The notes beneath the pieces are model-generated. The model had not been told where the DNA came from and searched no databases. It worked only from the letters and a program-made list of their open reading frames with translations. Made by a program: the position numbers and the translations under genes. From Ceratodon purpureus (Eukaryota > Streptophyta > Bryopsida > Pseudoditrichales > Ditrichaceae), in the NCBI GenBank assembly GCA_014871385.1, contig CM026426.1, forward strand, positions 38,657,799-38,721,798: 64,000 bases of DNA, read 5' to 3'. Position 1 is the stretch's first letter. Each line of letters opens with the position of its first letter. This document shows, one piece after another, positions 6,958 through 30,227 of this stretch.

Positions 6958-7636
6958 TCTTACCAGCCCAACCATGGTAACCAAGGAAACCCGGAGCGGT
7001 GGAAGAACTCGCAGTTAGAACAAGGACTGAGAGTAGACAGAGAAGGCAGTGATAGTTGTAGCAAGAAAGTAGGGCAGCAGAGACAGTATAAACAGAGGAA
7101 CCGTGATGAACTTGTACTCCTCATTTTGGCTTTCGAGTCGAGTCTTAGTCTAGGTTGTCACCGTTTTTGTAACCGCCTTGGTGTGCTTGGCCGCCAAGGT
7201 CACCTCTCATTAACCCAGACTGCTGATTACCTTCTTTTTGCACACCTTCTAGCCTACCTCTCAATTTGCATACTCTGATCTCAACTTGTTATTCCTTTGA
7301 TACTACATGTGCATGCGAATGTGATTATGTCGTTGTCTCTGCATCCCCATCTTGCATAAGTCTTCCCCACCCTCGGCCCGCCTTGGGTACTGAGTCTTGG
7401 GAACATGGGTTGCTAAAGCCCGGTCTACTTGGTTTCGAGGGTCGTCAGGCCCGCAGATCTCTTGGTAGCCTCGGTTGTCATGAGTGTCTCAACGGCTGAG
7501 CCCCTGGACTGAGATTCCCCCCCCCCCCCCCTATGACCACGCATGTCCTACCTACAACCGTGTCCCTCCTTGCCTAAAACCGCCAAGGTCCCCCTCCCTC
7601 CCCTCAGTATCTCCATGATTATAAACCCTGCTAACA
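6958..7636 (+). repeat. 5' LTR of the Ty3 element
   Basis: It is nearly identical to 29554-30227. The LTR ends are TGTTA and TAACA; the left copy has TC instead of TG at its first two bases. A TATA-like CAGTATAAACAG is present in both copies (about 7085). A poly-C tract near 7509 is longer than in the 3' LTR. The short open frame inside the LTR is present in both copies and has no sign of being a gene. Confidence 0.93.
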
Positions 7637-7639
7637 TTT

Positions 7640-7657
7640 TAGCGACGATGCTGGGGA
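7640..7657 (+). other. Primer-binding-site-like sequence
   Basis: TAGCGACGATGCTGGGGA begins three bases after the 5' LTR. It resembles the TGGCGCC-type primer-binding sites of plant Ty3 elements with several mismatches. The match is partial, so the tRNA used is not settled. Confidence 0.5.
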
Positions 7658-7706
7658 TGGAATACTGAGGTTACGTAAAAACTGGCCCTGAAAACAACTG
7701 GACACC

Positions 7707-10700
7707 ATGCCTCCCAGGAAACTGTTTTTAGATAGAATCAATGAAGTAGAAGAAGCTGCCAACCAAGAAGACTTAGAAAGCACCAAAGAATTCTTGGTAT
7801 GGATGAGGTAGCAAATGACATATTTGGTAACCAAGAATGAGACTACCAATGCAAAACTAGAAATGCTCAGTGCCCATTATCAGGTACTTCAAGATAGCCG
7901 TACCCATGAGGCTATGAACACGACACCACAAGCCTCAGAAGCTTTACGCGAGGCACTAAGGTCAACCACGATTCCCAGGGACAATCCCACAGCTGCCTCA
8001 ATCCCTAGTCAAAGTGACCTACACAAACATACCAAGTTTCCCAAGATATCATACCCACTGTTTGATGCGTCTGGAGATCCTGACTGGTACATGAGAGGAT
8101 TCAAGGTTATTGCTCGAACAAATGGTGTCACCAGTCTTGAAGATCTACAAAATATCTTCGGTACCACGCTCCAAGGGAACCACATTACCTGGTATATCGA
8201 TTTTGAAGCAAAACATTCTCATGCAAGCTGGGAAGACATGGAAGGGAGTTTTTTGCACAAGTTTAGAAAACTTAAGACTAGCTCCCAGGTACTCCGCGCC
8301 CTAGGAAGCATTACCCAAGAAAAGAGTGAGCCAGTAGATAAGTTCTATGATTGTTTTAAACAGCTTGCCGATAAATTAAGCCAATGTCCTGCAGAAGACT
8401 ACCTTTGCGAATGGTTCAAAAAGGGATTGTTACCATGGATACAACAAGGCATCGTGATCCGTGGAGTCAAGACTTTACAAGATATATTAACCGCAGCAAA
8501 CGATATTAGTAGGGAACTTGGGGCCCTCAACAAGGTACAAGCTCCCCTGTTATCCTTATCCAATGTACGCCCGGATATCAAGCCAACTTTAGCACCTTGC
8601 TCTAACTGCGGCAAAATTCATGGGGGTCGGTGTTTGTACGCAAGAAACAACCCTCGGCCCGAGGACATTAGACGCCCTTGTCCTATCGGGGCAGCCATGT
8701 ATCCAGACGAAATTAACGTGGATGCATTCCAGCCTAGTAGGAGTGATGCCTGCTGGGAATGTGGGTCTGTAACCCACAGACGTAGAGACTGCCCTCAGCT
8801 GCAACAACGATGGGCTCAGTACCGTTCTACCTCGGGAAATCCAGGTTCCCAGGAAACCACAAAAACCGAGGGCACCCACAGACGAAGAGGAGTTACACTC
8901 ACAGAGGTACATGGGGCCGAGACAAATGTATCCACGATCAGCACCGCAGTAGTAACCACTAGATCCAAGGCAACCCCAGATGAACACGTAGTAGAGCCTA
9001 GGAAACCATTTGCAGAAAACCACTGGGACCGTCTGCACCGAATACGACGAGAGTTACAAGAAGGGTTGGAAAACACCAACGAAGACTCACCAATGAAGCA
9101 AATTTTGGAGGATACTAATGTCACTATTACGTTGTCCAAGCTAATCCAATTAAGCCTAGAGTTGCAGAAATATTTGCATCAAGCTACATTAGCTGGAGGA
9201 CCAGCGGATCCTGAAGTTATCGAAGTTAATGCGACCACGTTGGACTTTGAGGCTGCGCTCATTCACTTACAACTTGGAGACCATGAATTAACTAACGTAT
9301 TGGTAGATGGAGGGTCTGGCGTTAATGTCATGAGTAACCACCTTAGAGAACATTTAGGCCTACCCCCTCCCAAGCTGGCCCAGTTTATACTACGTATGGC
9401 AAATGATGCCCCGGTCACGCCACTGGGAATACTATCTACCGTTGCTATTACTACTTACGGTGTTTCGACACCAGCTACTTTTCTAATAATCGATATGCCA
9501 GATAGTAGTAACTTCCCAGTAATCCTTGGAAGACCGTGGTTACGAGATATGAATGCCATCCATGACTGGTCTCGAAATCAGATTCGTATTCAGCGACAAG
9601 GCAAAACCGTGATTATTCTTGTTGATAGTTGCATCACCAGGGCTAAAGCTGATCAGATACGACACAAGGCCGGTACCAATTGGGTAAAGGCTCTCTCACC
9701 AAAACAAGAAGCCATGGTATTTCAAGCCAATCCAGACTTAATACCATTAGCAGAGATCCATTTGGCTAGTATGGTGGCTGACCAAGAAAAAATGGACATC
9801 TTCTCCCAGGAAATTAAGGAATCAGTGACGATTCAAGCTATGCCTGCCAACCAAGGCTTGCAAACCAAAGTCATTACTGGCTGGACTCATGGAGCTAAAG
9901 ACAAAGTGGAACTCGTGAACCTTGGAACCCTGAAGAACCCCAGACATATTAAAATCAATGCAGATGCTCCAACCCATGTCAAACAAGCAGCGATTAAATT
10001 GTTTCATGAATTCCAAGACATTTTTGCATGGGGACATGAGGACCTGAAGGGAATACCAAGCACTTTAGCAGAGCATACCATAGACCTTGTACCAAACGCT
10101 ACACCAGTCCAACAGCGATGCTACCGTATGAATCTTAACTACGCAGTACGCATTAAAGCTGAGCTAGACAAACTGCTTAAAGCCAAACTGCTAGACATCA
10201 CCCGTAGACTCACCTCCGTGGCTATCTCCCATGGTTATCATACCCAAGAAAAATGGAACACTCCGAATCTGTGTGGATTTCCGAAAATTAAATGCTGCGA
10301 CCAAGAAGGACCATTATCCCTTGCCATATATGGAAGAAATAATCGATGAAGTTGCCGGCCATGAAATGTACTCCTTCTTGGATTTTTTTTCAGGATATTA
10401 CCAGGTAGCCATGGCTGAACAAGATAAAAACAAAACAACCTTCTCCACGGAATGGGGGCCCTATCAGTTCGAAAGAATGCCTTTTGGGGCAAAAAATGCA
10501 CCCATGACCTTCCAACGCGTCATGGAATTGATTTTCAGACCATATCTAAAAAGGTTCTTCCGAATTTACCTTGACGACGGCACCGTCTATGGACAAATGA
10601 AGGACCATATCACTCACTTTAGACAGATATTCCAGGCATGCCGATCTAATGGGGTAAGCTTGAATGCCGAAAAATGTATGTTTTTGTTCGTTGCCAGGGT

Positions 10701-12610
10701 TATCCTTGGATATATCGTATGCAAATATGGCAAGCTCCCTGACCCCGAGAAAATCAAGGACATCATGGAAATTACGCCTTCCACGGACTCAGAAAGGTGT
10801 CCAGAAACTCCTAGGGTTATCACAATTTAATCGTATTTACATTGAAAAACTGGCCCACATCACTGCTCCCATCACTGCACTGAACCATGCCAAGTATAAA
10901 TACCGCCAGGATTGGACCCTTGAAGCCCAAGCCGCCTTGGAAAAAATCAAAGTTGCATACTCGAATGCCCCGATTTGATTGCCCCTGATTGGACAAAGCC
11001 ATTCCATGTACATACGGATGCCTCTAACATTGCCGTGGAGGTTATGCTCGCCCAAAACTTAAATGGAAAGTACAATCAGCCTGTTGCCTATGCCAGTCGA
11101 CTCTTAAATCAGGCAGAACGAAACTACTCCACAACCGAGCGAGAAGCCTTAGCCATAATATATGCAGTTAAAAAATTTCGGCACTATTTACTGGGAAACA
11201 AATTTCGTTTCATGGTAGACCACCATAGCTTATCATACTTGGTGAATCAGCCTTTGGTAACAGGCCGCGTTGCCCGGTGGATCATGATACTCTTGGAATA
11301 TGACTTTGAAGTTGTATATGTACCAGATAAACGGCACATAGTTGCGGATTATTTGTCCCGGGACTCCAAGGCTACAGAAGAAGGCATTGATGATTCCTTT
11401 AACGAACCATATATCCAGGCCGCCAGCCTCGAGGTAGACATCCCAACAGATTGGCGTGGGGACCTCATAAGGTACTTAACTACCGGCCTCACTCCAACCG
11501 GCCTCTCAGGCACTAGAAGAATTAGCTTTGTGAGAACCACGTTACCGTATACAGTAGTCCAAGGTCAACTGTACCGGCAAGGACTGGACCAGGAAACCCG
11601 ATTATGCGTACCTGCAGGACAAGAACGGAATCTCATGGCTATACTCCACGACGGCCCTGTAGGACGCCACCAAGGACCCGAGACCACCATCAAAAAGATC
11701 ATGGCTGCCCGCTATTGGTGGCCTACATTACACAAGGATGTTCATGAGTATGTCAGGAATTGCCATGCTTGCCAGGTCTCCACAACCAACTTCCAGTATC
11801 AAGGTCGCGTCCCCTTGAAATCTATCCCACCTCTCGGACCTTTCCAATGTTGGGGACTAGACTTCGTTGGACCTATTAAGCTAGCCACTAGACAAGGTCA
11901 CAAATATATTCTCGTAGCTACAGATTATACTACAAAGTGGGTTGAGGCTAAACCTTTACGAACCAATACTGCCTTGGTGACCGCGGCCTTTATCTATGAA
12001 AACATTATTATCCGTTTTGGTTGCCCCTTAGAAATCATATCTGATCAGGGCACCCATTTTGTGAATGCAGTTATAGAGGACCTCTTGGACAACCATATCA
12101 TCAAACATAGAACAAGTACTGTCTATTATCCCCAAGGAAATGGCCAAGCAGAGTCCACCAATAAAACCTTGATCAACATGCTTCGAAGGTTCATCCATGC
12201 AAACCCATCAGACTGGGGCGACTGTCTCCCAGCCGCGCTCTAGGCATACAGGGTAGCAACCAAAACGGCCACCCAGGTGAGTCCGTTTGAAATGGTCTAT
12301 GGCACCCAGCCACTTTTACCTACAGAATATATTGCACCCACGTTTCAAACTCTACAGCCCAAGGATTACATGCCACACAGGGTCCTTGCTGCCCGTATAC
12401 AAGACTTACACTATCTAGAAGAAGTCCGTGCCTTTGCTATGAAAAACATTGCTCGCAAACAAGTGTTAAGCGCAAAATATTTCTAAGCCACCAAGCCACA
12501 CAATCTATTTGGTACGGACCGTACAGAGTTCAACTGGTATTACCTAACAACACAGTACTCTTGGTCCACAAGGAGAATTTTGATAATCAAGCAACCATAG
12601 TAAATTCTAC
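7707..12610 (+). pseudogene. Ty3 gag-pol polyprotein gene, disabled
   Basis: From ATG 7707 the frame hits a TAG at 7809 and then runs open to about 10200. It covers a retrotransposon gag domain (WYMRGFKVIART...TWYIDFEAKHSHASWEDM), a CCHC knuckle (CWECGSVTHRRRDCPQ) and a retropepsin-like site (LVDGGSGVNVM). A frameshift near 10195 leads into reverse transcriptase (MVIIPKKNGTLRICVDFRKL, FRIYLDDGTVY). A second frameshift near 10770 leads to the thumb region, and RNase H follows (HTDASN, ADYLSRD). The integrase has its HHCC finger (11650-11790) and its catalytic D, D and E within LDFVGP, SDQGTHF and GQAEST. A TAG at 12241, a TAA at 12484 and a further frame change precede the chromodomain-free tail near 12600. 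All enzymatic motifs are recognisable, but frameshifts and stops preclude a working product. Confidence 0.94.
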
Positions 12611-14065
12611 AAAACTTAAACATTACCATTCAGAAAATTTGGAGACTACACCTACACATAGCCTTGGAGAAATTTATCAAGCATTAGCCACGGAAGCCCA
12701 AAATAACATGGAAACCCAGGATGCGCATTCAGATCCTAACCAGCAGGATGAGCCAAGATCCATGGAAATCCATGTCAGCCTGGTCCATGTCAGCATACAG
12801 GACACCCAGCCCTCCTTAAGACGTCCCATCGTTGGGACAGCTCAAGCAGTTCATAGACCCCGCATCATGGGGATCCCGCCGCCACCTTCCACGGTAGCCT
12901 CCACAAATTTCCATGGAAATCCAGACATCAATCTCAGCCATCCTTGGAAAGCTCTCCCAGTCACATCTCCGCCACCAAGGCACCATCTCGCCCCCAACAC
13001 CCTGGGTCCCTGCCTGCGCCTCCCTTTGTCTCCATGGTCTTTTCCCACAACCAGGGGCGCTGCTACTGCTGCTGCTGCTTTGTCTCCCTCATACTTCCTT
13101 CACCACATTGTCTCCCACGCACCTCTCCTGGTCTTCCTCTCTTCCCTGCACACTCTCCCACAGCCACAGCAGTCAGTTCTCATGGAGAGCAGGAAGGTCC
13201 AACCGCCCTTCCATGTGCCTCGGATGATCATGGAGTGGAAGAGGCAACCTGACCTCATCTACATGACCGATACAGGGTTAGCTAAGTACTTCACACTACT
13301 CGAAGGCAAGATCAACATCCGGCATTGCCTCGAATTCGCAAATTCCATGCGCACACGCAGTGAGGAGGAGACTTACCCGATAGACGTAGTAGAAGGCATC
13401 CTAGTCGAGTACTCCAGCAGATACCTCCATAAGTTTTTTGGTTGGGACGGATTGGGCGCTACCGCATCGAGCGAGGCGAGTCGCTTCCCGCAGCCAGATA
13501 TCGCAGCCCGAGTTGGAGACCTGGAACCTAAGAAGGACGGCAGGTATGATGTATTTGCATTGGGGAATCAAATGCAAGATCCATGGTTTTCTAGGATGCG
13601 TGGTGTGTTAAGTCAAGTATACTTTCAGAACAGCTGCAATGGCATCCTGCCATCGCAATTGTCCCTCCTCCTCTTGGCAGACGCAGGGGAGACAATAAAT
13701 TGGGGACTCATGGTCGAACACAACCTCCTGATCCAGCTGCGAGGATACAGGAAGCGCCAAGACTATAGCAGCCCCATTGGTCCCTTCTTGACCTCGTACA
13801 TCTCGCATTTCCTCGCATTCTACCGCAGGTACAACCGGCCCCCCCTCATGGAAAGCGTTTTGGACGTTCAGAGGGAGATCACCACAACCAAAACTCGGGA
13901 CCCGACCCTGCCAGGACCCAGCAAGCGCCCAAGGAGTGAAGAACTCGCCAAGGAAAAGCAGACGACCACAGCATGGGGTCCCACGGCTACCAAGTTCTAC
14001 ACAAAGAGCGCAGCCCTCAACAAATGTGAGGAAGAAATGCTCGAGTAGATACGCACCGCCGAAAA

Positions 14066-14083
14066 GGGTGGAAGTATGCTAGA
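14066..14083 (+). repeat. Left terminal inverted repeat of the 14.2-kb transposon
   Basis: It begins GGGTGG directly after AAAA. Mismatches to the right end are at positions 12 and 13. From 14086 to about 14620 the DNA has no gene but around ten GTAC words, the probable subterminal region. Confidence 0.9.
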
Positions 14084-14915
14084 CCAATGTACTTTTTGAG
14101 TCACAGTACATTATACATTGAAGGCATGAATTTGTACTTTTAATTACCTGTACTCAGAAGCTTTTTCTTCGGGTTTTGTTTTGTTTTTCCAAATACTACA
14201 TATGTAGAGACTTCCTATGCATTATTGAATCAGTTAGAAAATCAAGTTAAGTGTGTTCAATTTGTACTATTGTGCACTAGTACAAAAAGGTCACACAGTA
14301 CTTGTATATGAGAAAAGTACACAATTCTTTAACATCAAAGGCTCTAATTTTGTTTTCGTTTTTTGCAAAGGAGATAAGAAGGAATAGCCTATTGGAATCT
14401 ATCCCTGATTTTACAAGTACATAGTTAATTTGGTCTGTACATGGAAGTAAGTGCTGGTTTCAGTTGCAACGGAATACAAAGTGGAAAATTAAATTTTTTG
14501 TAATCGGAGGCATGATTCTCGACGGTAGCACGCATTTCTACAATGGCCTTCTGTCAAATAATGAAAATGGTCATTTTTCCGTTACTTTGCCCTCGACGTC
14601 TTACTGTGTGCTACTTGTACACAATTTACTCTAGAGTATATGATGTACATGGAATCCGTCATAACTACTGCCTCGTTGTTCAACAGATCCTGTTTATCCG
14701 GGCCGCCATGCCATGAAGGCGCCGCCAGCTCTTGATTTGTCCACGTCATCGTCTCTCTCGCTGGTTCCTCATCGCCCATGCAGCACAGTGTTGCGTCTTT
14801 GCTGTAGCATGCTGTTGCTTGCGAATTGAGGTTTACAATGTGTTGAAGAGTTTGGTTCGTTCTATAGTTTAGCTTGTTCATGAGTTTAAGGGCGGTTACT
14901 CTTCCTCTGTGAAGA

Positions 14916-15279
14916 ATGTCAAAGTCGACGCAGCGGCACGTTGTCTTTGTGCAGAGACTGATAACATCATACTTTACTGCAGCTCCGATCACTGAGTCTG
15001 GTTCTTCTTGCTGCCATTCATTTTGTGAGGTTTCTGATTCGGGTTATGTTGAAGAAACCCCAGTGTCAAAGCAAGGGAACCGCGATTTCTATCTAGGCAG
15101 ATGCAACAACGTAGATGAGTCCCCTAGGCGGTCTTTATTCATGAGTCCAGTTTTGATATGTTATTCTGCAAGTAGCTTTGACAACACACCTTCTGTTTCG
15201 GAGGGAAGGCGATCAGTAGGGTCTCCTACTGCTTCTTGCGAATGTGTTGCATTCAGGAAGTGACGAGATTCATATTCGA
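14916..15279 (+). other. Possible upstream exon or leader of the transposase candidate gene
   Basis: A 115-residue open frame (MSKSTQRHVVFVQRL...) ends just before a well-formed GTGAGT donor near 15280. A matching acceptor (TTTTCTCTTAG, ending 15432) lies 12 bases before the transposase ATG at 15444. This suggests a spliced 5' exon, but the frame has a stop before the donor, so it may be only untranslated leader. The protein resembles nothing I know. Confidence 0.35.
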
Positions 15280-15443
15280 CGGTGAGTTCCCGTTGCAGTC
15301 TCATGAAAGAGTTATTTTGCGTTTTTCTTCTCTAAACCCTTCACGAATTGAACTCCGCGACCATGATCTCCGATTATTCAGTTTCAGAAAACTGATGCGG
15401 GTCTATTGTTTTCTACGTCTGTTTTTCTCTTAGGTTTCCAGCA

Positions 15444-18400
15444 ATGGGAAATACCGCTAAGAGGCAACGCTTGCGACAGGGTATCAGCCGCCCAGGTCCA
15501 GCAGCTAGGCTTGCTGAAGCTCGCTTGCAGGAGGAGTTACGGGCCGTAGCTACAGAGAGGGCAAGAGAAAAGAAGGCCCTTTAGAGAGCACGAGATAGAC
15601 AAAGACACGAGGAGGCATTGGTTTTAGCTTCTGTGCCGCCGGATCATGAAGTTGATGATGCTCTCACTGTGCGGGAGTTGAACCGGATCTCCCTTCGCAT
15701 AGCACAATACATAGTCAAAGAGTTGAGAAGTTGTCCCAGTCCATCTAGTAGGAGAGATGTTATGGAGAAGGTCATGCGTCATAACACTATTTCGCCTTTG
15801 CTACCTGTTTACTATGCTCGGCCACAGGAAACAAAGGTTATTCATTCTTTCATTGAGAACTTCAAGAACGAGTTACAGTTAGTGAAGCAGGCTAACTCTA
15901 ACGAGCTGTTGGCAAGGAAGAGTGCTTTGTTAGATGCCGCAGTTAGCCAGGAGATCGAGGGAGTGAGGCCGTTGTCACGTGTTTTGGTTACAACACAGAA
16001 GAGCATTAATATTGCGTTAAACAGAAGGGTTTACGCCCCCAATACTCCAGACACGGTTTGCAGTCTTCGATTGCATAGGAAGAAGAGACCAGGGCTATCT
16101 GAGTACGTCAAAGAATGCATTCATGCATGGTGGAATGGTCAAACAAAAGTATTACCGAATAAGAAGGACATCGTCAAGCATAGAGTAGGTCAAAAAGACA
16201 GGGCCGAACCTCATCCAACACATTACTTATGCGAGCCTCAGGTGAGTTGTAACTTATTGATTTCTTGTTTGTATAATATGATGAGTCCGATTGCTTAGTT
16301 TACATACTTTCAGTACCTCATAGGACAATATGGGTATCTGAAGGTTGTAGAGAAGTCATCATTAGTTACTTTGTAGTTGTTGTGTAGCGTATTTTGCCTA
16401 GGTTGCATTCCATGGTACATAATTTGGATCAAAACATTGCAAGAAAAGGTACTATACATAGTCTTCTTCGGATGTGTACTCTATGTAATATAAACTTCTA
16501 GCAAGGTCCTGTTAGAGCAAAGTATAATTTGTACTGGTTGTGTAATTTGGAGACAATAGATGATTTAGTGCTTTTGCGGACTTTAGATTATAATTGGAGA
16601 AGTGGTACCGTGAGTACTTTACGGTCATAGTAAGTACTGGACGTGCGCCGTAATGTACTTTTTGACTTTGGACTTCCCCTAGTTGCGATGCAGGGGTGTA
16701 AATGTCCATATGATGGATCCTCACTATACTTATTGTACTAGGTTAGAATTTTTCTATAATACAGTGTTTAGTAATTGACTAAATTTGCTACTTTTGAACA
16801 CTCAGCAATAACTTAGAGTACAACTTAGTACTTGGAGTCATGTACATACGTTGCGTTGCGTTGTATTGTATGGTCTTCATGTACCTTTTATACTTGCGGC
16901 ATTGTTCAGAGTACTGAGGGGTACCGACTGTTCTTATCCATGACTTTTTGTAGAGTAATGGTCTCTATTTTGTACAATTAGTACATTTCATTGCATGTTT
17001 TGTATTAGGTTCTGAATGAAGGTCTTCTATCGTACCTAATGTACACTTGTGCGTGATTGGCAGACCTCATTCTACTTGCGCTTCGAAGAGGTCCACCCAG
17101 AATGTAGTGTGCGGCAGAGGGCTTTTGAGAGGTTGAAGCCATGGTGGGTGCGAAAACTCAAGGAGAGGAATACTTGCTGTTGCATATACCATGTGGAGAC
17201 GGACATGATGAAGGTTGGATTGAGCAACCTCAGGGACAAAGTCAGGGGGCTCCATGTGCATACCACATGTGATTGTGCGTGTACAGTATGCACAGGCAGT
17301 AAGGAAGGGACTTGTTGTCCGCATGAGAATACTTTCAAACGAATAACTTTGATGTGGGAATCATGTGTTTGTCCAAAAGGAGAATTTGATATGTGGCATA
17401 GGCTTGAATGTCTCATGGGCAATTGTTCTAGCTGTGGTTTCCAACTCTTTCCTATTTGCCCGCATGAGTTGTCTGGTTCTAACACCTTTCTTGTTAGATG
17501 GAAGTGTTTCGAGTACTACCAGGTGGGAGTGGATGCTCAGTCTGGAAAAGTGAAGAAACATCTTTGGGAAGCTTTCAAAGAGACAGCTGTTCACGAATTC
17601 CTATCTTATATGGAGAAAAAAGTGACCACCTTTATCACACACAACTTCAAGGCACGATGACAAGATGAGCAATGTCAATTGATGATGAAGAACGTTCCGG
17701 AGGGAGTGGTTGTGTCACATACCGACTATGCAGAGAACTACACTTTTGCCATTCAAAATGAGGTCCAGAGCTTGTACTACTTCAGTACTAGTGTGACCAT
17801 CCTGGTGCACATTACGATGTAGAGAGAAGGAGAGCAGACCATGAAGCAGACTCACTTCTACATATCTGATGATAAGGCTCACGATTCACCTTTTGTTCAA
17901 CATTGTCTGACGTTGCATTGGGATTGGCTGGGTGATTCAGGGTTGACACCAGAGGAACATTGGGTCTACAGTGACGGGTGTGGTTCCCTGTTTAAGTGCG
18001 CGACAGCGATGTACTTTGTTGCACGCTACCCTGCGCTCACTGGGGTTTGCAAGATGCGGTGGAACTACTTTGAGTCAGCTCATGGAAAAAGAGAATGGGA
18101 TGGGGCTGGTGCCGTGGTGAAGAGGGCGCTTGCTGCTGAGCGGATCCAATATCCATTGAGGCCCTTACAGAATGCTGCTCAAGTTGTGGAATTCCTGGAG
18201 GAGAAATACACAGAGCGCGTTGCCAGCTCATATGCTCATGCTAAAACTTCCCCTCTTTCACGTGTATTTTGGTTGATAGGAAATACAGAGGTGGATCATA
18301 ATGATAAGAGTATCAAGTGTAATACTTTGCCCGGCTCAAAGAGTCTATATTCTATTATGGGCTTCTCTATGGCTGATCCGACTATGCTTAGAACTTGAGA

Positions 18401-18989
18401 GTTGTCATGCTTCTGCATCCCGTGCATTGATGGTGATTGGACTGAGTGTGAGAACTTGACGCATGTGCAGGAGTGGGCTGTTCAGAGGCTGTGCCCGATG
18501 AGTGCAGGAGGTGTAGCACAGCAAATTAAAGAAATTGACGACGAGGCTAACTGGGTGTATGACGGCATTTCAAAGGAGGTCGGTGACTTCGTGGACATCA
18601 GCGACAATTTCATGATTCCAGCAGAAGAGGAGAACGAAGACGGAGTGGAATTCTACATTCTCCAGTGTCAAGCAAAGAAGTTTGTGTTAGCAGAGCCCAA
18701 GGCTTGCCCTTGGGGGGGGGGGGGGGGGGGGGGGGGGGTATTTAGGGCTGGAGATGTTGTGATCAAAGCAAAGTATTACAAGAAGTACGGACGTGGTGAA
18801 AAGACGTATGTACTCTGCGACAAAGCAGTTGATGCACATGTTGATGCCCATCTGGTTAGAGCTTGTAAATTCCCTATGGTTCTAGCTCAACACAGGGTAC
18901 AAAGTACTCCTGTATACAAGATGTCAAGTGAAACGCTTCAGATATGCGAAGATGCCCTGCGAGAGTGGTGGGCGTTCAACGAAGATTAA
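15444..18989 (+). pseudogene. Cys-rich DDE-like transposase candidate of the 14.2-kb element, two exons
   Basis: Exon 1 is 15444-16241 and exon 2 is 17064-18989, joined by a CAG|GTGAGT donor and a phase-0 CAG acceptor. The order is a basic helical N-terminus, then a cysteine/histidine cluster (CDCACTVC, CCPHENTF, CVCP, CSSCG, about 17270-17470), then SHTDYAENY, YSDGCGSLFK and ESAHGKREWDGAG, spaced as expected for D, D and E catalytic residues. The C-terminal part reads FYILQC, FRAGDVV and HLVRACKFPMV. The frame is constant through both exons. TAG at 15582, TGA at 17658, TAG near 17820 and TGA at 18396 disable it. A run of about 27 G at 18713-18739 codes for glycines. I have seen similar HGK...DG.G sequences in uncharacterised animal and plant proteins but cannot name the family. 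Confidence 0.7.
16242..17063 (+). other. Intron of the transposase candidate, GTAC-rich
   Basis: This 822-bp intron has roughly twenty GTAC words by eye, against about three expected by chance. It contains no reading frame of note. Confidence 0.6.
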
Positions 18990-19726
18990 GTTCAAGTTGC
19001 AAGCTATGTACACAAATTTGAGGATTGTTTCTGACTTGACGGTGGTTTCAAAAGTACTGGTCCCGTGATGATATAAGTCAAACAAATGCTTGGGTATTTG
19101 TCTGACTAAAAGTGAGCTCCAGAGATATCCCGCTATCCAAGTGCTCCCCCTTTTTTTTGCTTCAGTCATCTATTGTCTGGCATAGTAGTCTGTGATTAAG
19201 AGAACCTGCAATCCCTTACTTTCTTTTATTCTTTATAATCTTCTTTTCATGCTACCCACACCCATTACGTAGTATCACCCATTCTGTATTTCTTTTTTTA
19301 TTTCGATTTAGGCTGGACGATCATAGTTCTACACTTTGCTGGATATTAGGTACTGTAGTTTTTTCCTTTTTGTTTTGGACTTTTTACAAGGAGCACTGGA
19401 TAGCGGTACCTCAAGAGCTCATATCTAAGGATAGCAGTGATATCGTAGAATGTTGGAATTGGGAGCTACCGGTTTAGGGTGAGAGGTATGTTTCTCATTT
19501 GACGTTGGTTTTAGAAGTACTGGTTGGTGTTTAGACAAGTACTAAGACTACTCAAACAGTACCATTGAGACATTGATTCTAAGAATTTACAAGTGAGTTT
19601 ATAAACTCAAGTTCCGGCTTCGAGCTATAGAGTTTGAATGGTTGTATATTTATCCGAGTTGTTTTATGTTTGCTTCAGAATTGTTGAAGTTTCATGAGTC
19701 CCAAAAATCCTTGTATTTGGTCTATT

Positions 19727-19862
19727 TGTACATGTAGTGCATCAAAAATGTACAAAGAGTATATTCTGGATATGTACGTGTAGTATATCAAAATGTACAA
19801 AGAGTATAATCTGGATATGTACGTGTAGTATAACAAAATGTACAAAGAGTATGCTCTGAACA
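19727..19862. repeat. Three tandem copies of a 45-46-bp unit
   Basis: The unit begins TGTACRTGTAGTATATC and includes ATGTACAAAGAGTAT. Copies are 19727-19772, 19773-19817 and 19818-19862. They lie in the roughly 1.1-kb gap between the convergent genes of the 14.2-kb transposon; the rest of 18990-20090 holds no gene. Confidence 0.85.
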
Positions 19863-22152
19863 TATCTTTGGTAGTACAAACAGTATATTGGCAGAAATAT
19901 TGTTCAAGATTAATCCCTTTTATGCATAAACAAAAGGCTTGCAGTTGAAAGTCTAGAAAAATGTGCGAGTGTGGTTCTGCTTTACAGAAGGATATCACAA
20001 CACATATGTGGAGTCATCTTCTCCTAGGTGGTTTACTGGCTGACCTTCGGATGGCAAGTGGTAAGGCATTGTCTCTACACATTTTACTCATACACTAACA
20101 AGTAAACCGAGGTAGGTCCGGATCATCATTGTTAAAATTAGTGCCATAGTCCCAGGTTAGTTCCTCTCCAGGACGTATGATACGACTTGCAAAAAATGCT
20201 ACATGATAGAAGCGGCGATCCACACTCTCTATCAAAATAGGTATGTCCACTAGGTTAGAATCTTCACACTTGTAATGACAGAGGCCCACAGTCAGGCCAT
20301 ATTGTAGAATGTGAGAAGAAAGACCGTAGAGTATGTAGAATATGGTCGCAAATTCTAACTTGTGGTTCAAAAACCTGGCCACATTTCCAAATCGAGTAGA
20401 ATCCAAGCACAATGGATTGTGGTCGTCCAGTTTCCGCTTAGTGGCCCAGTCAGCATCAAGTTGCAAGCTATAGGACTGACCCGCAACTACCCCCACGTTC
20501 CTAACCATTTGCTCAGCATTTGTTAAAATCTCTCCCACCAACTCAAAAACGAACGCACAACTAGGTATTAGCTCAGTCGTCCGAATCCCCCACCCCGTAA
20601 GGGCTGTAGGAAAAACCTCTACTTGAAACTTCATCCCCTGCTGGACAACACGATTGCCACAATCACTATGACACCTACACTTGACATTGCACTTCTTAAG
20701 GAAAAGACAAGGAACATGACCTCGGCACACTGATTCGCCATTAAAACACCGTCTACCCTTCTTACAGTAATGTGCATCTTCTTCGTTGTGATTGTAGAGA
20801 TAAGCGTCCTCCACGATACCTCCTTCGCTGCATGCAACTCCTCCCCTTCTCCTTTGCCGCAGCCATGCTCTCATTTATTCCTCCCTCCGCCTTCCTTCTT
20901 GAAACCGCCTTGAATTTGGCTGCAGCCTCCACCTGCACCAATGTATCTACAAAACCTGAGGCCGTGGCTCCTCCATCCTTACCATACTCTCCCCAGAGCA
21001 ACTTGGCCTTGCGTCCCGGCAGGCATTGCGACCCTGGCTTGGGTGTCTCCTTCCTCGCGGGCTGCGCCTCATCGTCCTTCTCGTTCTCCTTCGGTGTCAG
21101 CAGTCCCTTCTCCTTCTCTATAGCACCATCCCCTTCCGCCACTGCCTCATTCTTCTTCCCCGCGCTCCCAACTCGACCACCCTTCTTTGGCGATAATTCG
21201 ACGAGTAGCCCCTGAGCTGTCCCCTCCTCCACTGCCTCACCCTTCTTCCTCCCGCTCCCAACAGTTGGACCGCCACCCTTCTTCGGCAATGCAGCGCCGT
21301 GTAGCTCCTGAGCTGTCCCCACCTCCACAGCCTCACGAATCTTCCTTCCGCTCCCCACAGTTGGACCCTTCTTCGGCACTGTTGCGCCGTCCCCTTACTT
21401 AGCTTTCGCCTCCTCCACTGCCTCACGAACCTTCCTCCCGCTCCCAATAGGGTGTCCCTTCTTCATTTCTGCAGCGCCGTCCCCTTCCTCAGCTGGCTGA
21501 TCCTCCACTGACTCGCCCTACTTCCTCCCGATCCCAAGAACCCCAGCTGCCTCGCCCTTTTTCTTTCCACTCCCAATGATGCCCGCTCCTTCATCCCTCC
21601 TCTTCCCTCCTCCAACAACGCCTAAACCACCCGCCTTGTCACCCCTACCTCCTTCTTGGCCCTCCGCCGTCGCTCCTTCATTGCTCCCGGCTCCTGGCGG
21701 TGGCGGTGGCGGGCTGAGGAGATGTCCATTTGAAGGGAGCGGCTCTATTGAAATGTCACCGTCTCCAACATCCTCTTGACCCTCCCCTGACTCACCATCA
21801 CTGCTCTCCGAAGTTTCACCTAAGACGGTAGTGCCGGAGCTTGAAGGTAAGGGGCCCATCTTGTTGTTGTCCTCTTCGTCAGATGAAGAATCGTCTCACG
21901 AATCGAGCTCTAGTTCAGCTCCCTTTACATGAGTCCCATCCAAGAAACAGTCCATCACCACCTTCTCCACCGGCTTCTCCAGCATTCGAGGAACTCTAGA
22001 TTTAATGCTCTCGCCCCTGACAATCCTTTGCGGCTCTTCTCCTAAATCTTCTAGATCGCCTAGAGACCATGTTGGCTGGCTTGTCTCCCCTTCCACTGTT
22101 GGCCCCCCATTCTTGACGGCCTTCTTAGGTGATGCAAACCTCAGGCTAGAAC

Positions 22153-23060
22153 CTGCCACCAAACATCTCGTTAGAGTCTAAACACATGGTACCGAATGTA
22201 GTTGCAGTCAACTAGCACAAATGAACCAGTACTATCACTACCTATTCTGTTTGAACTGGTGGACCATTTGTACAAGTTCGCAATCCTAAATGTACTCTAC
22301 GACTTGTTCTTACTCTGAGTTTACCATGTAGGACTTCTAGTACCAAATAAAATAAAGACAAGAAATACCTGTAGTACCTCCGTCAAGCACAATGTTGTCT
22401 GCGCACCCTAAACCGTAAGTACATTTCAAGCACTATGTCACATGGAGTACATAAAATACTTGCTCTAAGTAGCCGCATGTACCTGAAGATTAGGCCTAAT
22501 ATACAAATATGACATCTCCAGCAACTAACAAAAATCACCAAGTACCATGCAATACACAATAATGTACGGACCTCAGTGAAGCAAACAACTTGTACATGTA
22601 TTGGATTTAGACTTTGACACTACTATACAAATATGACATCTCCAGCAACTAACAAAAATCACCAAGTACCATGCAATACACAATAATGTATAGAATTCAG
22701 TGACAGGACTTCTTGTACACATATTGACTTCAGACTTCGACAGTAAGATACATCTTCAGACATATGTTGTTAGTAAAATTGGACTTCATATCCACTGTGC
22801 AAGTCTAATCCGGCACAAAGATCGCAATCATCACAATGCTAGCAACCACACCAAAGACATAGTGTACAACCTTACGATCCAACAATATACTGGCTATTCC
22901 TTTAACAAACTTCTAGAACTCACCTGAACTGGAACAACCGCAAACTACATTCTAGGACTCCAAAGTACATAAGCACTCAAATTCCTACAGAGCACAACAA
23001 TGACTCAACACTCTAAACCACATATCCGGAATGCTGAAAATTAAATGTAAATTAACTTAC
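22153..23060 (-). other. Intron of the SET fusion gene, GTAC-rich
   Basis: The minus-strand donor is G|GTAAGTTAAT at 23060 and the acceptor GGTGGCAG ends at 22153; phases agree (G|GT, glycine). It carries many GTAC words and a 123-bp tandem duplication. Confidence 0.65.
22501..22746. repeat. Tandem duplication, 123-bp period
   Basis: Copy one starts at 22501 and copy two at 22624. The first 65 bases are identical between copies (ATACAAATATGACATCTCC...), then divergence rises. It lies in the intron of the SET fusion gene. Confidence 0.85.
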
Positions 23061-23852
23061 CATTAGATGGCACATTCGCCATAGCCTGCTCTGTCCTATC
23101 CTTCATCAGCCTCCTCCTTTCTTTGGCTACTCCAAGCATCCTAGCCGTCTCCACTAGATCCGCAGGTGGCTCTCCCTAACCAAAACTCCGGTACCATTCC
23201 GGGTGACAAATCTCCCCGCACCCTATTGCCACGCACTTGCAGCTACGCACAAAGACTACTGAAGCACAGAAAGGATGATATAAGTGTCTATAGGAGGATA
23301 CAACCATGTCATTCTGCGGGAATGGGAAGGAACACAAGCAGCAAGGGGTAATCTTGATGAACCCGGTCTCATCTTCAAAATCACACCTGGACAGAATTGA
23401 CACCGCAGGCGCATACACCAGTGGACTTGGAGTAAATTTCAGAGTACTCCTCCCTTGCTTCAACTGAAACTTCTCGGCTGCAAGGGCATCAAGTTGCAAT
23501 TGGCTCGACTCCAATTCTCGGTTCAATGCCTGGATCTCAGCTTCGGCACTCTCTAGCTCCCACTTAGCGGTCGCGACCTTGACCTCCTCCTCTGCCAACT
23601 GCTCCTGAATTCCCTCCATCTTGATCTTCTCTTTGTACACATTGGCCCCTTCCTCTTCCATCGCTCAAATCAGCGCCGTCTTCTGCTCCTCTTGTTTCCT
23701 CAATGTGCCCATGCCCCATTCACTTTGCTTGCTCTTCCAAATGGCGCCGTCAAGCAATTGACTTGCCTCCTTCTTCAGCTCCCGCTTATGCTTCTGCTCC
23801 AAGTAGACAGCTTGCTGTAAACCCTCCACGTCTCGCAGCCGCTCCTCCACTT

Positions 23853-23993
23853 CACTAGTAGAAATTTGGTCCTTAAGGACTCGTCCGTAATGACTTAAAT
23901 GGTCCAAAATGACTTAAATTGAGTGAAAATGAGTCATTTTGGACCATTTAAGTCATTACAGAGGAGTCCTTAAGGACCGTATTTCTACTAGTG
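23853..23993. mobile_element. CACTA-type MITE, 141 bp
   Basis: The ends are CACTAGTAGAAA and its inverse TTTCTACTAGTG, the typical terminus of plant CACTA elements. Arms of about 62 bp pair with about four mismatches around a short AT-rich loop. CTT flanks both sides (23850-23852 and 23994-23996), the 3-bp duplication expected for CACTA. It lies within exon 1 of the SET fusion gene; removing it plus one CTT restores the coiled-coil frame. Confidence 0.92.
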
Positions 23994-25559
23994 CTTCCCC
24001 CTTCGCCAACCTGCCACTGCTCTGTCTTCGCAAACCCGTATCCTCCAGCAGGCACACACCCGAGGCCATGGCGAACTCAAGTCCACCCTTCGACTCTCCC
24101 GGTGGTCCACGACCCCCCACCGTCACAGCAACCCCTTGCTCGCCCCTTCCTCCCCAGCCTGGTTCTATCTTAATGCCACGCCACTCCTTACCCCGGACAT
24201 CGACCTTTCTCTTCCCCTCCACGCACTTGGACTCCGCAATTGACTTCCTCACCTCCTCGAGCTTTCCCCTGTCCATGGTGTACCGGTTCTTCTATCTCTT
24301 GTTTGTCTCCTCCCCGAATGCACACCAATTCACTCGTCCACCACCTTCTTCGTACTCTAATGCTATCCCTTCGGCGAATCTCACAATGATCAGGTTCGGA
24401 TTCTCCTCCTTCCCATGTTGATACAGAATGGGATGTAGGTACTTCACCCTGTCCACAACATCCTGGACTTCGCAACCCTGCCAGTAGAACCCGCTCCGAC
24501 CACCATCTCCGTAGGGCTTACCAAACAACTTGCGCATAGTGTCGGAAGAGACCGTGCCTCTTCGGAGGTGGTGGGGGTTCTCCCCCTCGTTGAGGAGTCC
24601 ATACTCAGCCTGGAAATCCGCCTTCTTCAATTCTCGCGGAGGCTTCTTCAGCCTCGAAATCTCGTTGTCGACGTCTTCTACACACGTGAAGGCCTTCTCA
24701 GATTTCACAGTCCCCTTCCCTTTCTTCTTCGCAGTGGACTTGGAACCCGTAGCAGCTTCTTCCTCCAAATCGTCTTGGGGGGTATCTGCTCCTCGCGTTG
24801 CGCCTGAAGTACTCCTCGGCACGTCCTTTGCAACTCCTCCCTCCACCCTGTCCCGGCCACGACTGCGACCTCTAGTTCCTCCAGCTGCCGCCTTCGTCCG
24901 TAGTTCCCTCCTCGATGGCTCTTCACCAGTCCGCCCTTCTTTGCCTGACGACGCACGCGCCTTCTTCCGCGGACCCTCTCCTCCAGCGTCTTCCTCATCA
25001 CTCCCCGCACCGCGACTCCTCCTCTCTTGCGCTCCAACTACTCTCCCCTTTTTGGCGCTGGATGTGTCCCCAGAGCGTGCACCAGTACTTCGCTCCATTA
25101 CTGCCTCGAGTGTCGCTGCTGCTCTGCCTCCTCTTCCCCCTCCCCTCCGCTCCCTCTCTCCCCTCGTTGTTGTACAGCAATGGACAACCGCGTGCCTGCC
25201 TCCGCCGATCCCCCGCCTGATCACAGCTCCCTCATCGCCTCCAAACTCTTAGTAGGCTGGACTCTTCTTGCCAACTCCTGCCCCATCTACACCCCTCCAC
25301 AGAAACACCAAATGCCGCCACCAGTGCTACCTTTACCGCGCCAGAAGAAGCGAAAACAAAATCTACAGAGTAAACTCCAGAATCCAAGCTCACCATCGCC
25401 CCCCCTAAACCTACAACAGATGCACATGAACCCTACAAAACCATTGCTCCAGCATCTCACTCCTCACACAGTCGCAGCTTCGGCTACACACAATGCTCAC
25501 TGCCTTCGACCCCCGAGAGAGCTGCGAGACGAAGCTCACCCTCGACCACCAGTCACCTA

Positions 25560-26177
25560 ATGTCTCCTTCACAGCGGTCACCGGCAGTCACCAGTCATGC
25601 CCACACTCTCGTCACCCCTAACTGCTAATCACCGGTCACTAAACCCTCAGCATTACTTCCCGCCGTCACCTTCAATGTAAACCGACTTCAACATTAATTG
25701 ACACTTGAGTAGTATACTCCCTTCTCTCCTATCCTAAATACAATATATTTTTTTGCATATGGTTGAATTATCATACATAGATCTAGTCAATTTCTATTAC
25801 AATGCATTATAGTTTCGATTTTTTAATTTTATTTAAGGGGAGAAAGAAAGTTCTATACTGTACTATTGATTTGTTTTTGTTTTCCTATCATAAAAAACGC
25901 TTAAAATACACCTATATGAAATTAAAAAATTAAAAAATCAAAAAAAAGAAATACATGTATAAAGTAATTGCTTGTATTTTCCTTATACCTAATTTCTAAT
26001 TTCTGTTTTCTAATTTTTTCCAGAATTAAAAAAAAAAAAACACATATATTGGTGTCTTTATCCAACATACGATAAGTACTGTACTTTATAATTTATTTAA
26101 GGTGGGGAAGACAACAATTTTTGTTTATCGTTTTTTTTTTTAATTTCCTATCAGCAAATAAACTTAAAATAGATCTC

Positions 26178-26225
<48 letters not shown>

Positions 26226-27382
26226 TTATTAATGAACAACATATATAAAGCAATCTCTACAATATCTTGTTCTTTCGTCTTTGAAAAAGTGTCCTTCTCA
26301 ATTCTTTCACTTCTTCTATTTCTTTTAATGTTTCATATTTTATTTAAAGGGGGGAAGAAATAATCTTGATCAATCTATTACTTTTTCTAATAATCTTGAT
26401 CTATTATTCTTTTTTTTTTTTTTTTTTTAATATATCATATCAACTCTTAAGAAGGGGCGCACAAAATGACATTCATCATTTATTTTTTAAATTTATTTCT
26501 CTATCAATAAAATATCTTAAAGTAGTTGTACATGTTAAATGAATATATTAACTATCTCATATGTTGATTTTGCACGCTATAATTTTTCCATCATACTAAT
26601 TTCTAACGTCTCATGCCTAATTTTAAGAAAAAATTACATATAAACAAATCTACCCACATTTAAGAATATTCTATTTTCAAATTGCTATCTTAAAAATCCA
26701 TTGGCACCCATAAATCTGATGAATTCACTTTCATTGCTCTATTACATCACACTTCAATTGAGTGTTCCTTCATCCTTCAACTATTTATTTTTTATTTTTA
26801 TAATTTAATTAAACTCTTTTTTCTTTTTCTTTTTGACCATCTTTTATTTTATTTTTTTCCTTTTTTCTTCGTAAGTCCTTCTTTTTTCTTTTTTTCTTTT
26901 TCCACCTTCTTTTATTTTAATATTTCATTCCTTTCTTTCGTAGACCTCTTTCAGTGTCCTACTTTTATTTGTTTTCATTCCCTCTTATAGTACAGTATTT
27001 CATATTTGCAACTTTTTTCTCACCCTTCTATTTTATTTTATTTTTTCTTCTCTTTTTAAATTTTTTCCCCTTTGTTCTTTTATCACCATATTTCATATTA
27101 GTCTCTTTTTTCAGTCCTTCTACTATTATATTTTTCTTCTATTTTTTTTTATTTTACTTATTTTTCCTCACGAATCTTTTATTATCGTATTTCATGTCTG
27201 TTTCTATTTTATTTATCCTTTCATTATTTTTATTTCCCTCTTCTATTTTTTTTTCTTTTCAATTTTTTCCTTCTTTTATCTTAATATTTAAAATGTTATT
27301 TTAGGGGGGGGGAGGAAATGATGTCCATATTTTAATTTTAATTTTTATATTATTATTAAAACAACTTTAAAAAGCTATACAC

Positions 27383-27413
<31 letters not shown>

Positions 27414-28130
27414 AAAAAATAAATATGCTATATAGAGTATTTTCTTGCATTCTCCTTTTCCCACCATGCTAATAGCTCAACTTCTCATGTTCTCTTTTAT
27501 AAAATGATGAATTCTAGGAAGAACTATCAATTCAAAGTACGGAGGTTTATTTTCAAGATACAAAATTAGAAACCATATACAATTCCCAAAAAACAAGTGT
27601 ATAAATAATCGATACTCATGGTTTTCAATTTAAATTTTTTTATAACAACGTATTAAAAAGAAAATCTTATTAGAGTCATGCTATAATTTAATTTCAAAAG
27701 CTTGCATGATATTTTGGAATGCTTCAAACAACCAATCACTTGACTGAACTAGACATCATCCCAAGTTCATCTAAAAAAACCTGAAGTGGAGACAAGTCCA
27801 TAACTTTGAGACCTTTAACAAATATACAATTTTAAGGAGCAGGATGATTGCACATTAGAAGGATGATTGTAATCAAATGACCAATCTTGGAAACCCTGTC
27901 TGGAAAGGCTAGGATGCTAAGTGCTTCAATGAATCGCAGATCCTGCCACCGAGGCTGGACATCAACTCCCGCCACTCCATGTATTTGAATTCCGCCACAT
28001 GTCATGTCGAGATGCGCTGGCCCATATGGATCTAAATCAAAGCAAATCCCTAGTGTCATAATAGACTATCCTGATTGGTTGATTCCAATCGCCTAACCCC
28101 GCTTCTTGCAAGGAATTTCAACGGCTCAGA
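25560..28130. other. AT-rich low-complexity right arm of the 14.2-kb transposon
   Basis: No gene is visible. There are long T runs (about 26180-26220 and 26410-26428) and A runs (about 27382-27410), with T/C-rich stretches between 26760 and 27290. GTAC words are sparse here, unlike the rest of the element. It would contain the promoter of the SET fusion gene. Confidence 0.6.
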
Positions 28131-28214
28131 TTGAGTAAGGCAGAGTACTTATTGTACACTTTAGTACTAAAAGGTCCCAATGGTACAGTGGAGTTTTGCC
28201 AAAACTGCACTACC

Positions 28215-28232
28215 TCTAGTGTACTTCCACCC
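28215..28232 (-). repeat. Right terminal inverted repeat of the 14.2-kb transposon
   Basis: TCTAGTGTACTTCCACCC ends directly before AAAA. Five GTAC words lie in the 85 bases inward of it. Confidence 0.9.
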
Positions 28233-29539
28233 AAAAGGAGAAGGAGGAGGCCAAGGAGTTGGAAGAACGTTACAAACGCAGAGTCACCACGGCAGTCTAG
28301 GGAGCCCGAGAGCAAGCCCAGCATGTCCATGACCATGCTCTCACAGAATATCGGCAGCAGGTGGAGGAGAAAGAGCAGACTTTGACGAATCTACGCCACC
28401 AAATTACCAACCTAGAACTGGAGCTGCGGGCGACTCAAGACTAGGTGGATGCCGTTTCCAAGGAAAAAGCAACAGCAGTAGAACGTACCTTGAAATTGGA
28501 GCAGCAAAATGCGTAGTATCTTGCAAGATGCAAGGAACTAGCAGCTCACAATGCAACACTGGAGCAGAGGCAGAATTCGCAAGGGAACAAGGATTCGGGC
28601 CATCTCCAAGACTCCAAGGTTGCAGCTGAATTGGCCATCCAGGAATTCAAAGCCAACAAGGTGGGTTGGATCCACACCGCAGCCAAGCTAATTGCTACCA
28701 ACGCGTACACATGGCTGTGGGAACATGCACCCACAGTGTTATACCCTCCCGACGAATTCTTTAACCACTGCATTGACAGCACTTTGGCTGCCCTGGAGCT
28801 GGATCAGTCGGAGAACGATTGGGAGAACATGGAGGCCATGGATTTTGAAGATATTGACATGGAGGACATATCGTTGTCTCTCCACACTGAAACAGAGTTG
28901 GTACCCAGTAGCCCTCGGCCCGTTGTACAGGAGAATCCGCGACAACCCAGCCCTGTCCTCCATGAATTCGAAGATCAGGCCGAATGAGTGGATATTGCGG
29001 AGCGTTTCACCGACTCCGAGGACACTCCCCAACCTTCACCACGTCTGCAACCGCAACCCTAAGCTTTTCCAAGACAGGTTAATTCCATGGTACCCACGCG
29101 ACCCAAACCCTTTAGAGATCATAAAAATGCCTTACGAAAAATAGAAGAAGACTTTGATCTTGAGGAACAAACAAGCAATGAAGAGGGAGTTGAGGACGAA
29201 TTAACAACCGCGGTTTAGGAAGTCTAGAGTTATTTCTTGGCTAACCTTGACCTTGTTGCTCTACACAGGAATCCTGAGGCTAACAATGTGCAATGCCGTG
29301 CTTGCAATAAAGTCCTAGGAAAAACTGTATTTGATGTTTATCAGCATGCAAATACCTCAAGGTCGAAGCACAACCTAATCCATTGAGGTGTTGGTGCAGC
29401 CATAGCTGCCATCTATGATAACCAGGCCCCTCCCCGTCGCCACGCGCAGCTGCTAAGAGAAGAAACACGGCCTGATCGAAGACCAGCCTACCGACGCACA
29501 CGGGGCTGACTTGCAAATCCGGGACGGATTGCACTCTCC

Positions 29540-29548
29540 AAAGGGGGG
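29540..29548 (+). other. Polypurine tract of the Ty3 element
   Basis: AAAGGGGGG ends five bases before the TG of the 3' LTR, the expected position for second-strand priming. Confidence 0.8.
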
Positions 29549-29553
29549 CTAAA

Positions 29554-30227
29554 TGTTACCAGCCCAACTATGGTAACCAAGGAAACCCGGAGTGGTGGAA
29601 GAACTCGCAGTTAGAACAGGGACTGAGAGTAGACAGAGAAGGCAGTGATAGTTGTAGCAAGGAAGTAGGGCAGCAGAGACAGTATAAACAGAGGAACCGT
29701 GATGAACTTGTACTCCTCATTTTGGCTTTCGAGTCGAGTCTTAGTCTAGGTTGTCACCGTTTTTGTAACCGCCTTGGTGTGCTTGGCCGCCAAGGTCACC
29801 TCTCATTAACCCAGACTGCTGATTACCTTCTTCTTGCACACCTTCTAGCCTACCTCTCAATTTGCATACTCTGATCTCAACTTGTTATTCCTTTGATACT
29901 ACATGTGCATGCGAATGTGATTATGTCGTTGTCTCTGCATCCCCATCTTGCATAAGTCTTCCCCACCCTCGGCCCACCTTGGGTACTGAGTCTTGGGAAC
30001 ATGGGTTGCTAAAGCCCGGTCTACTTGGTTTCGAGGGTCGTCAGGCCCGCAGATCTCTTGGTAGCCTCGGTTGTCATGAGTGTCTCAACGGCTGAGCCCC
30101 TGGACTGAGATTCCCCCCCCCCTATGACCACGCAGGTCCTACCTACGACCGTGTCCCTCCTTGCCTAAAACCGCCAAGGTCCCCCTCCCTCCCCTCAGTA
30201 TGTCCATGGTTATAAATTCAGCTAACA
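29554..30227 (+). repeat. 3' LTR of the Ty3 element
   Basis: It is the direct repeat partner of 6958-7636, beginning TGTTACCAGCCC and ending GCTAACA. About 14 substitutions separate the two copies, which suggests insertion some time ago but well after hAT relic A decayed. Confidence 0.94.

Follow-up and report, generated by a model that had tools for sequence, protein, structure and literature searches.

Introduction

Among described DNA transposons, those of the Sola superfamily combine a DDD transposase with 4-bp target-site duplications, have been reported from the moss Physcomitrella (PMC10741241, PMC9033089), and carry inverted ends of 11-1124 bp (PMC10741241). Here, we analysed a DNA transposon that spans positions 14066-28232 of a 64,000-nucleotide stretch (the window) of the moss Ceratodon purpureus (contig CM026426.1), is nested in a Ty3 element, and ends in GGGTGGAAGTA. 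It shares with Sola, and with Sola1 of Physcomitrella in particular, the DDD transposase, the 4-bp duplications, the short inverted ends and the moss host, and some Sola elements likewise exceed 15 kb (PMC10741241, PMC9033089). It differs in carrying a SET gene, which the passages describing Sola in these papers do not mention, and the likeness is one of description, not alignment. We consider it quite probable that the element is a cut-and-paste moss transposon with a DDD transposase, whose lineage has kept a captured SUVR4-type methyltransferase in at least five families and likely acts on the chromatin of its own copies.

A second candidate relative is the Lanisha superfamily, which Maumus, McDaniel and Carey put forward in a 2020 Repbase report (cited in PMC12730594). 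Lanisha also moves by cut-and-paste, and its clade is given duplications of 2-5 bp; it is described as an EnSpm-like group in which C(2)C and H(3-4)H motifs precede the last E (PMC12730594), a layout that we did not find in the element here.

SET genes and DNA transposons have been described together in other hosts. The HarbingerS and MuDR transposons of Phytophthora carry a SET histone methyltransferase gene, although their hosts are oomycetes (PMC12730594); the likeness considered here is that of the SET gene. In primates, SETMAR unites a SET enzyme and a DNA transposon, but there the transposon landed beside a host SET gene (PMC6326780), whereas here the SET gene lies inside the multiplying element. 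VANDAL elements of Arabidopsis resemble ours in pairing an element-encoded chromatin regulator, VANC, with short motifs massed in noncoding DNA, introns included; VANC, however, causes methylation loss, and its motif is directional and bound, whereas the GTAC motif of our element is palindromic and a putative site only (PMC5735166). Among the papers listed for SET genes and DNA transposons, moss included, no title or abstract opening concerned a SET-carrying plant transposon. Transposons are usually the targets of histone H3 lysine 9 (H3K9) methylation, and the surprise is that a methyltransferase has been kept for long in a transposon lineage.

Results and discussion

The 18-bp inverted ends and AAAA flanks proposed in an initial annotation of the window could be read directly, with an exact match over 11 bp and two mismatches over the full 18 bp. 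The proposed nesting was confirmed by long terminal repeats (LTRs) on both sides of the transposon (6955-7636 and 29551-30227; 97.2% identity over 682 columns) and by a related, insert-free Ty3 copy on contig C3: the joined flanks (229 nt) aligned to C3:24014674-24014902 over 229/229 positions at 91%, with one AAAA, among 31 matches that included the window's own two halves. A second spanning Ty3 copy, on C6, is more diverged near the insertion site than the C3 copy. The annotation had also held that excision together with one AAAA restores the interrupted frame; the Ty3 frame broken by the transposon already contains stop codons.

Upon searching the genome with the terminal 235-242 bases of each end, we obtained 179 left-end and 129 right-end candidates at first look, and the best 40 of each, when scored, showed identities of 93-100% (left) and 95-100% (right). 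Nineteen two-ended copies were assembled from the window, eight of ten copies fetched whole (in the other two the right end was not in the fetched stretch), and ten end pairs picked by hand as a left and a right match at fitting distance. Identical 4-bp flanks were found in 14/19 copies and identical 5-bp flanks in none of the 19, while the five imperfect cases comprised four with a one-base difference and one with two (CAGA/CTCA), which may be a recombined copy. GGGT and ACCC were both intact in 16/19 copies, with single-base changes in three, and the 14 perfect duplications shared no clear target sequence. The 14.2-kb length given in the initial annotation holds for the window copy, but this copy is shortened, as 7/8 other two-ended copies measured 14.7-15.1 kb and one 16.5 kb. 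The contig that carries the window (C6, 110.5 Mb), presumably a sex chromosome by its size, held 32/40 left and 29/40 right scored ends, against its 30% of the genome, counting best-scored copies only and including the window's own ends. The element represents a real multi-copy, multi-family transposon lineage, now with clear ends and a duplication length that can be used in annotation.

As the annotation had stated, the element contains two convergent intron-containing genes, which we assign to a transposase on the plus strand and a SET gene on the minus strand. The transposase is predicted to be encoded in two exons and to have an RNase-H fold with a D-D-D triad. Its intron has the donor CAG/GTGAGT in 8/9 copies and the acceptor in 9/9, and D221, D304 and D346 of exon 2 were invariant in 58/58 rows of an alignment that, like the transposase tree, left out P0055, P0056 and P0057 and in which some long rows were cut. 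Exon 2 of the C8 copy matched no Pfam family at E up to 10, and a PDB profile search with the transposase returned 0 matches.

The mechanism appears Sola-like, and membership in Sola is plausible when compared by description: the 4-bp duplication (14/19 copies), the triad in a predicted fold (58/58 rows) and the inverted ends (11 bp exact) all agree with what is reported for that superfamily. It is conceivable, though we would not favor it, that the element is instead Lanisha, already described by authors working on Ceratodon, as the title and authors of the Repbase report suggest (as cited in PMC12730594). The third acidic residue, however, is apparently D346, 41 residues past D304 and without a C(2)C/H(3-4)H insert; the sole H(3)H that we noticed (H586/H590) varies between rows (17/58 and 41/58), and a CxxC at 451-454 falls after D346, as judged from model and alignment rather than against a Lanisha sequence. 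The share of ends on C6 would fit Lanisha, which is abundant on Ceratodon sex chromosomes. Termini of the CMCT clade are CA..TG in most cases, whereas our element ends in GGGT..ACCC. The candidates for its name are Sola, Lanisha and a new lineage, with both superfamilies compared by description; that the element is undescribed is not shown, given that Sola has been published as having just this combination of DDD transposase and 4-bp duplications, and that Lanisha was proposed in 2020.

The strongest point is absent from the initial annotation: the minus-strand gene is that of a SET-domain histone methyltransferase. On this strand the order is first exon, linker, then pre-SET, SET and post-SET, and the latter three could be aligned with plant SUVR4 (four host-type proteins), with a PF00856 match in the SET frame. 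By homology, the gene is of the SUVR4-type SET histone methyltransferase class. In Pfam scans of 9 + 3 + 1 frames, only SET frames scored above the cut-off, the RING-like finger of the first exon giving weak scores below it. The first-exon protein had seven database relatives at 43-77% identity, from a search that scored the 7,994 candidates sharing most words; five weak matches in a PDB profile search (E 0.24-0.99); and a poor structural model (mean predicted local distance difference test score, pLDDT, 49.5), in which the coiled coil was the main confident part.

First exon, linker and SET are probably spliced into one protein. The apparent phase-0 intron between linker and SET (between 7388 and 7021 in the C8 copy) has its acceptor in 5/5 families and the donor AAG/GTAGGT in 3/5, where the L060 stretch stops short of the linker and L057 showed no identical donor. 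An insert of ~30 codons after NHR has GT and AG at its borders and resembles a further, small intron. A less likely arrangement is that the coiled-coil/RING-like regulator and the SET enzyme are encoded by separate genes: with the intron retained, the linker frame can also run into a basic tail of its own and terminate there, and in the C8 copy an in-frame ATG precedes the SET exon, at which the predicted metagenome protein P0063 also starts. Yet L057, L058 and L059 lack an in-frame ATG just upstream of SET, L060 has an intervening stop, and the phase-0 acceptor in all five families again speaks for the single spliced protein.

We found the same gene order in sister families. The host gene, represented by the SUVR4-like Ceratodon purpureus protein P0073, aligns to C1 as five segments of 89-100% identity, which identifies the genome as that of Ceratodon purpureus or a very near moss. 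Searching the genome with this gene gave 131 matching stretches, grouped by frame length; 72 of 1,023 candidates were scored to obtain them, and segments of the host gene itself are counted among them. One member was fetched from each of four groups (L057, L058, L059 and L060). Transposase exon 2 is open in L057, L059 and L060 at 76-89% identity, whereas in the decayed family L058 it is reduced to a C-terminal remnant; SET lies in convergent orientation in all four, at 51-70% identity. By likeness, the left ends of three sister families are GGGTTAAGGTAC, GGGTGAGAGTAC and GGGTGTAAGTAC, each starting with GGGT, and that of L060 is supported by another copy, whose 99.8% identity begins at precisely this base.

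In a tree of 36 SET sequences, the five transposon copies grouped with 14 metagenome proteins (100/100), while 16 host-type proteins and P0116 fell outside this group; the 31 database proteins were picked by hand from 120 listed (410 found), and as the tree has a midpoint root, the group counts as a clade only with the root outside it. Given this separation of the transposon SETs from the SUVR genes of hosts, the capture appears to be single and old. Among the metagenome proteins, certain SETs, transposases and first-exon proteins share the length of their longest contig (5267; 213937; 8592), which hints that the three genes are linked there too.

Between families, the ratio of nonsynonymous to synonymous divergence (dN/dS) was 0.05 for the transposase (1/6 pairs, the others being saturated) and 0.13-0.31 for SET (8/10 pairs), where the slices of L058 and L059 extend some codons beyond the exon. 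From these comparisons, selection appears to have kept the captured SET gene. It is improbable that the SET gene is a passenger, a chance host fragment without function in the element, even though part of it is missing from the window copy and substitutions within the family are hardly unlike those in noncoding DNA: SET is retained in at least five families, many matched stretches are stop-free, between-family dN/dS is low as given above, and the SETs group with metagenome relatives.

Several observations weigh against our overall reading, the extended SET slices among them. Within the family, the ratio of nonsynonymous to synonymous differences (pN/pS) was 0.38-0.41 for the transposase and the first exon and 0.59 for the linker; the SET exons gave 0.50 and 0.82, and three noncoding controls 0.50-0.70. 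As the controls are nearly equal, we rejected within-family dN/dS as proof of selection. Upon adding the most distant relatives, P0055-P0057, D221 stayed invariant and D304 and D346 only nearly so. The best Foldseek rows for the transposase were low-scoring NurA structures by template-modelling (TM) score, which we did not use, and an IstA transposase came at rank 7 (E=0.011). The first-exon frame of the C8 copy is shifted, and the C10 copy has an open first exon but a stop in its transposase. The case as a whole is built on DNA sequence and predicted structure.

Assignment to the CMC/EnSpm-like, Zisupton, MuDR or piggyBac/Kolobok superfamilies is very unlikely, for although some of these are likewise large or make short duplications, the exon 2 search in Pfam was empty, the termini are GGGT..ACCC, the duplications are of 4 bp with TTAA in 0/14, and the D-D-D core has no C2C/H3-4H insert. 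Taken singly, piggyBac and Kolobok target TTAA, and the 14 varied tetramers include none. Zisupton (KDZ) requires 8-bp duplications (PMC12730594), seen in 0/19 copies, and MuDR has duplications of 7-12 bp (PMC10741241), with 0/19 copies at 7 or 8 bp. A search among viral contigs gave 18 pattern hits and no relatives.

We propose that the DDD transposase would cut at the GGGT...ACCC ends and that insertion would proceed through a 4-bp staggered cut, to which the ends, the duplication and the empty site point. The lineage would have acquired, probably in a single event, the gene of a SUVR4-type methyltransferase of the H3K9 class and fused it downstream of a coiled-coil/RING-like protein. Transposase and SET genes have stayed in convergent order across at least five families. 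The fusion protein would most likely alter the chromatin of the element's own copies and so tune their silencing, in either direction.

GTAC was the most over-represented tetramer in noncoding DNA of 4/4 families tested (L058 left out), at 80/23.4, 50/12.6, 29/8.8 and 51/17.3 observed over expected (about three- to fourfold), although in the C8 copy tandem repeats supply part of the excess. Because of this over-representation in four families, self-targeted chromatin control is possible. GTAC is also bound by host SBP proteins, which are an alternative reader. The sites occur in the leader, close to or at the ends, and as dense clusters in introns, a layout like that of VANC-bound motifs in Arabidopsis VANDAL elements (PMC5735166). 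As a speculative extension, the fusion protein might recognise GTAC in the noncoding DNA of its own element and methylate H3K9 there, so that the family would set its own silencing level. This would make it a counterpart of VANC in plants that writes a mark instead of erasing one. With an H3K9-class methyltransferase gene long resident in a plant transposon lineage and showing signs of selection, one can test whether a selfish element benefits from self-silencing, from interference with the host enzyme, or from a mark on its own copies.

Other features of the window copy and its relatives

The window copy is dead, with stops in the transposase and a ~1-kb deletion at about 20845 that removes the start of SET; the missing stretch is present in 10/10 other fetched copies. 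A 141-bp hairpin insert in the first exon is absent from 8/8 copies covering that place (Table 1).

Table 1. Positions of the transposon, its genes and its Ty3 host in the window
Feature	Position	Strand	Basis and remarks
Host Ty3 element, LTR to LTR, enclosing the transposon	6955..30227		LTR pair
Left target-site duplication AAAA	14062..14065		Direct reading; C3 empty site with single copy
Left terminal inverted repeat GGGTGGAAGTATGCTAGA	14066..14083	+	16/18 positions equal to right end
Transposase exon 1	15444..16241	+	Start by offset from C8 copy; decayed in window
Transposase exon 2 with predicted D-D-D core	17064..18989	+	In-frame stops including 17658-17660, 18396-18398
SET/post-SET exon remains, SUVR4 type	20017..20845	-	Approximate bounds; PF00856 E=6.5e-15; 5' part deleted
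Linker exon, charged and repetitive	20846..22150	-	Approximate bounds, by offset
First exon: conserved domain, coiled coil, RING-like Cys/His finger	23062..25098	-	Bounds by offset; 141-bp hairpin inside
Right terminal inverted repeat	28215..28232	-	Direct reading and copy comparison
Right target-site duplication AAAA	28233..28236		Direct reading

The hairpin (23853-23993) consists of two 62-bp arms, 94% complementary and 17 bases apart, and resembles a small foldback insertion. A 124-bp tandem repeat (22496-22752), which varies in copy number among copies of the element, lies in the large intron of the minus-strand gene. Between the C8 copy and L060, synonymous divergence is 1.06 in the transposase and 0.49 in SET; SET genes may have been exchanged between families. 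At L059:1843 (C7), the sister element starts just within the end of a long open frame, gag-like by eye, and this site may represent a second family with a nested copy. The ribbon-worm and snail relatives P0052 and P0053 carry, behind the transposase-like part, a further stretch that looks like an OTU-type protease.
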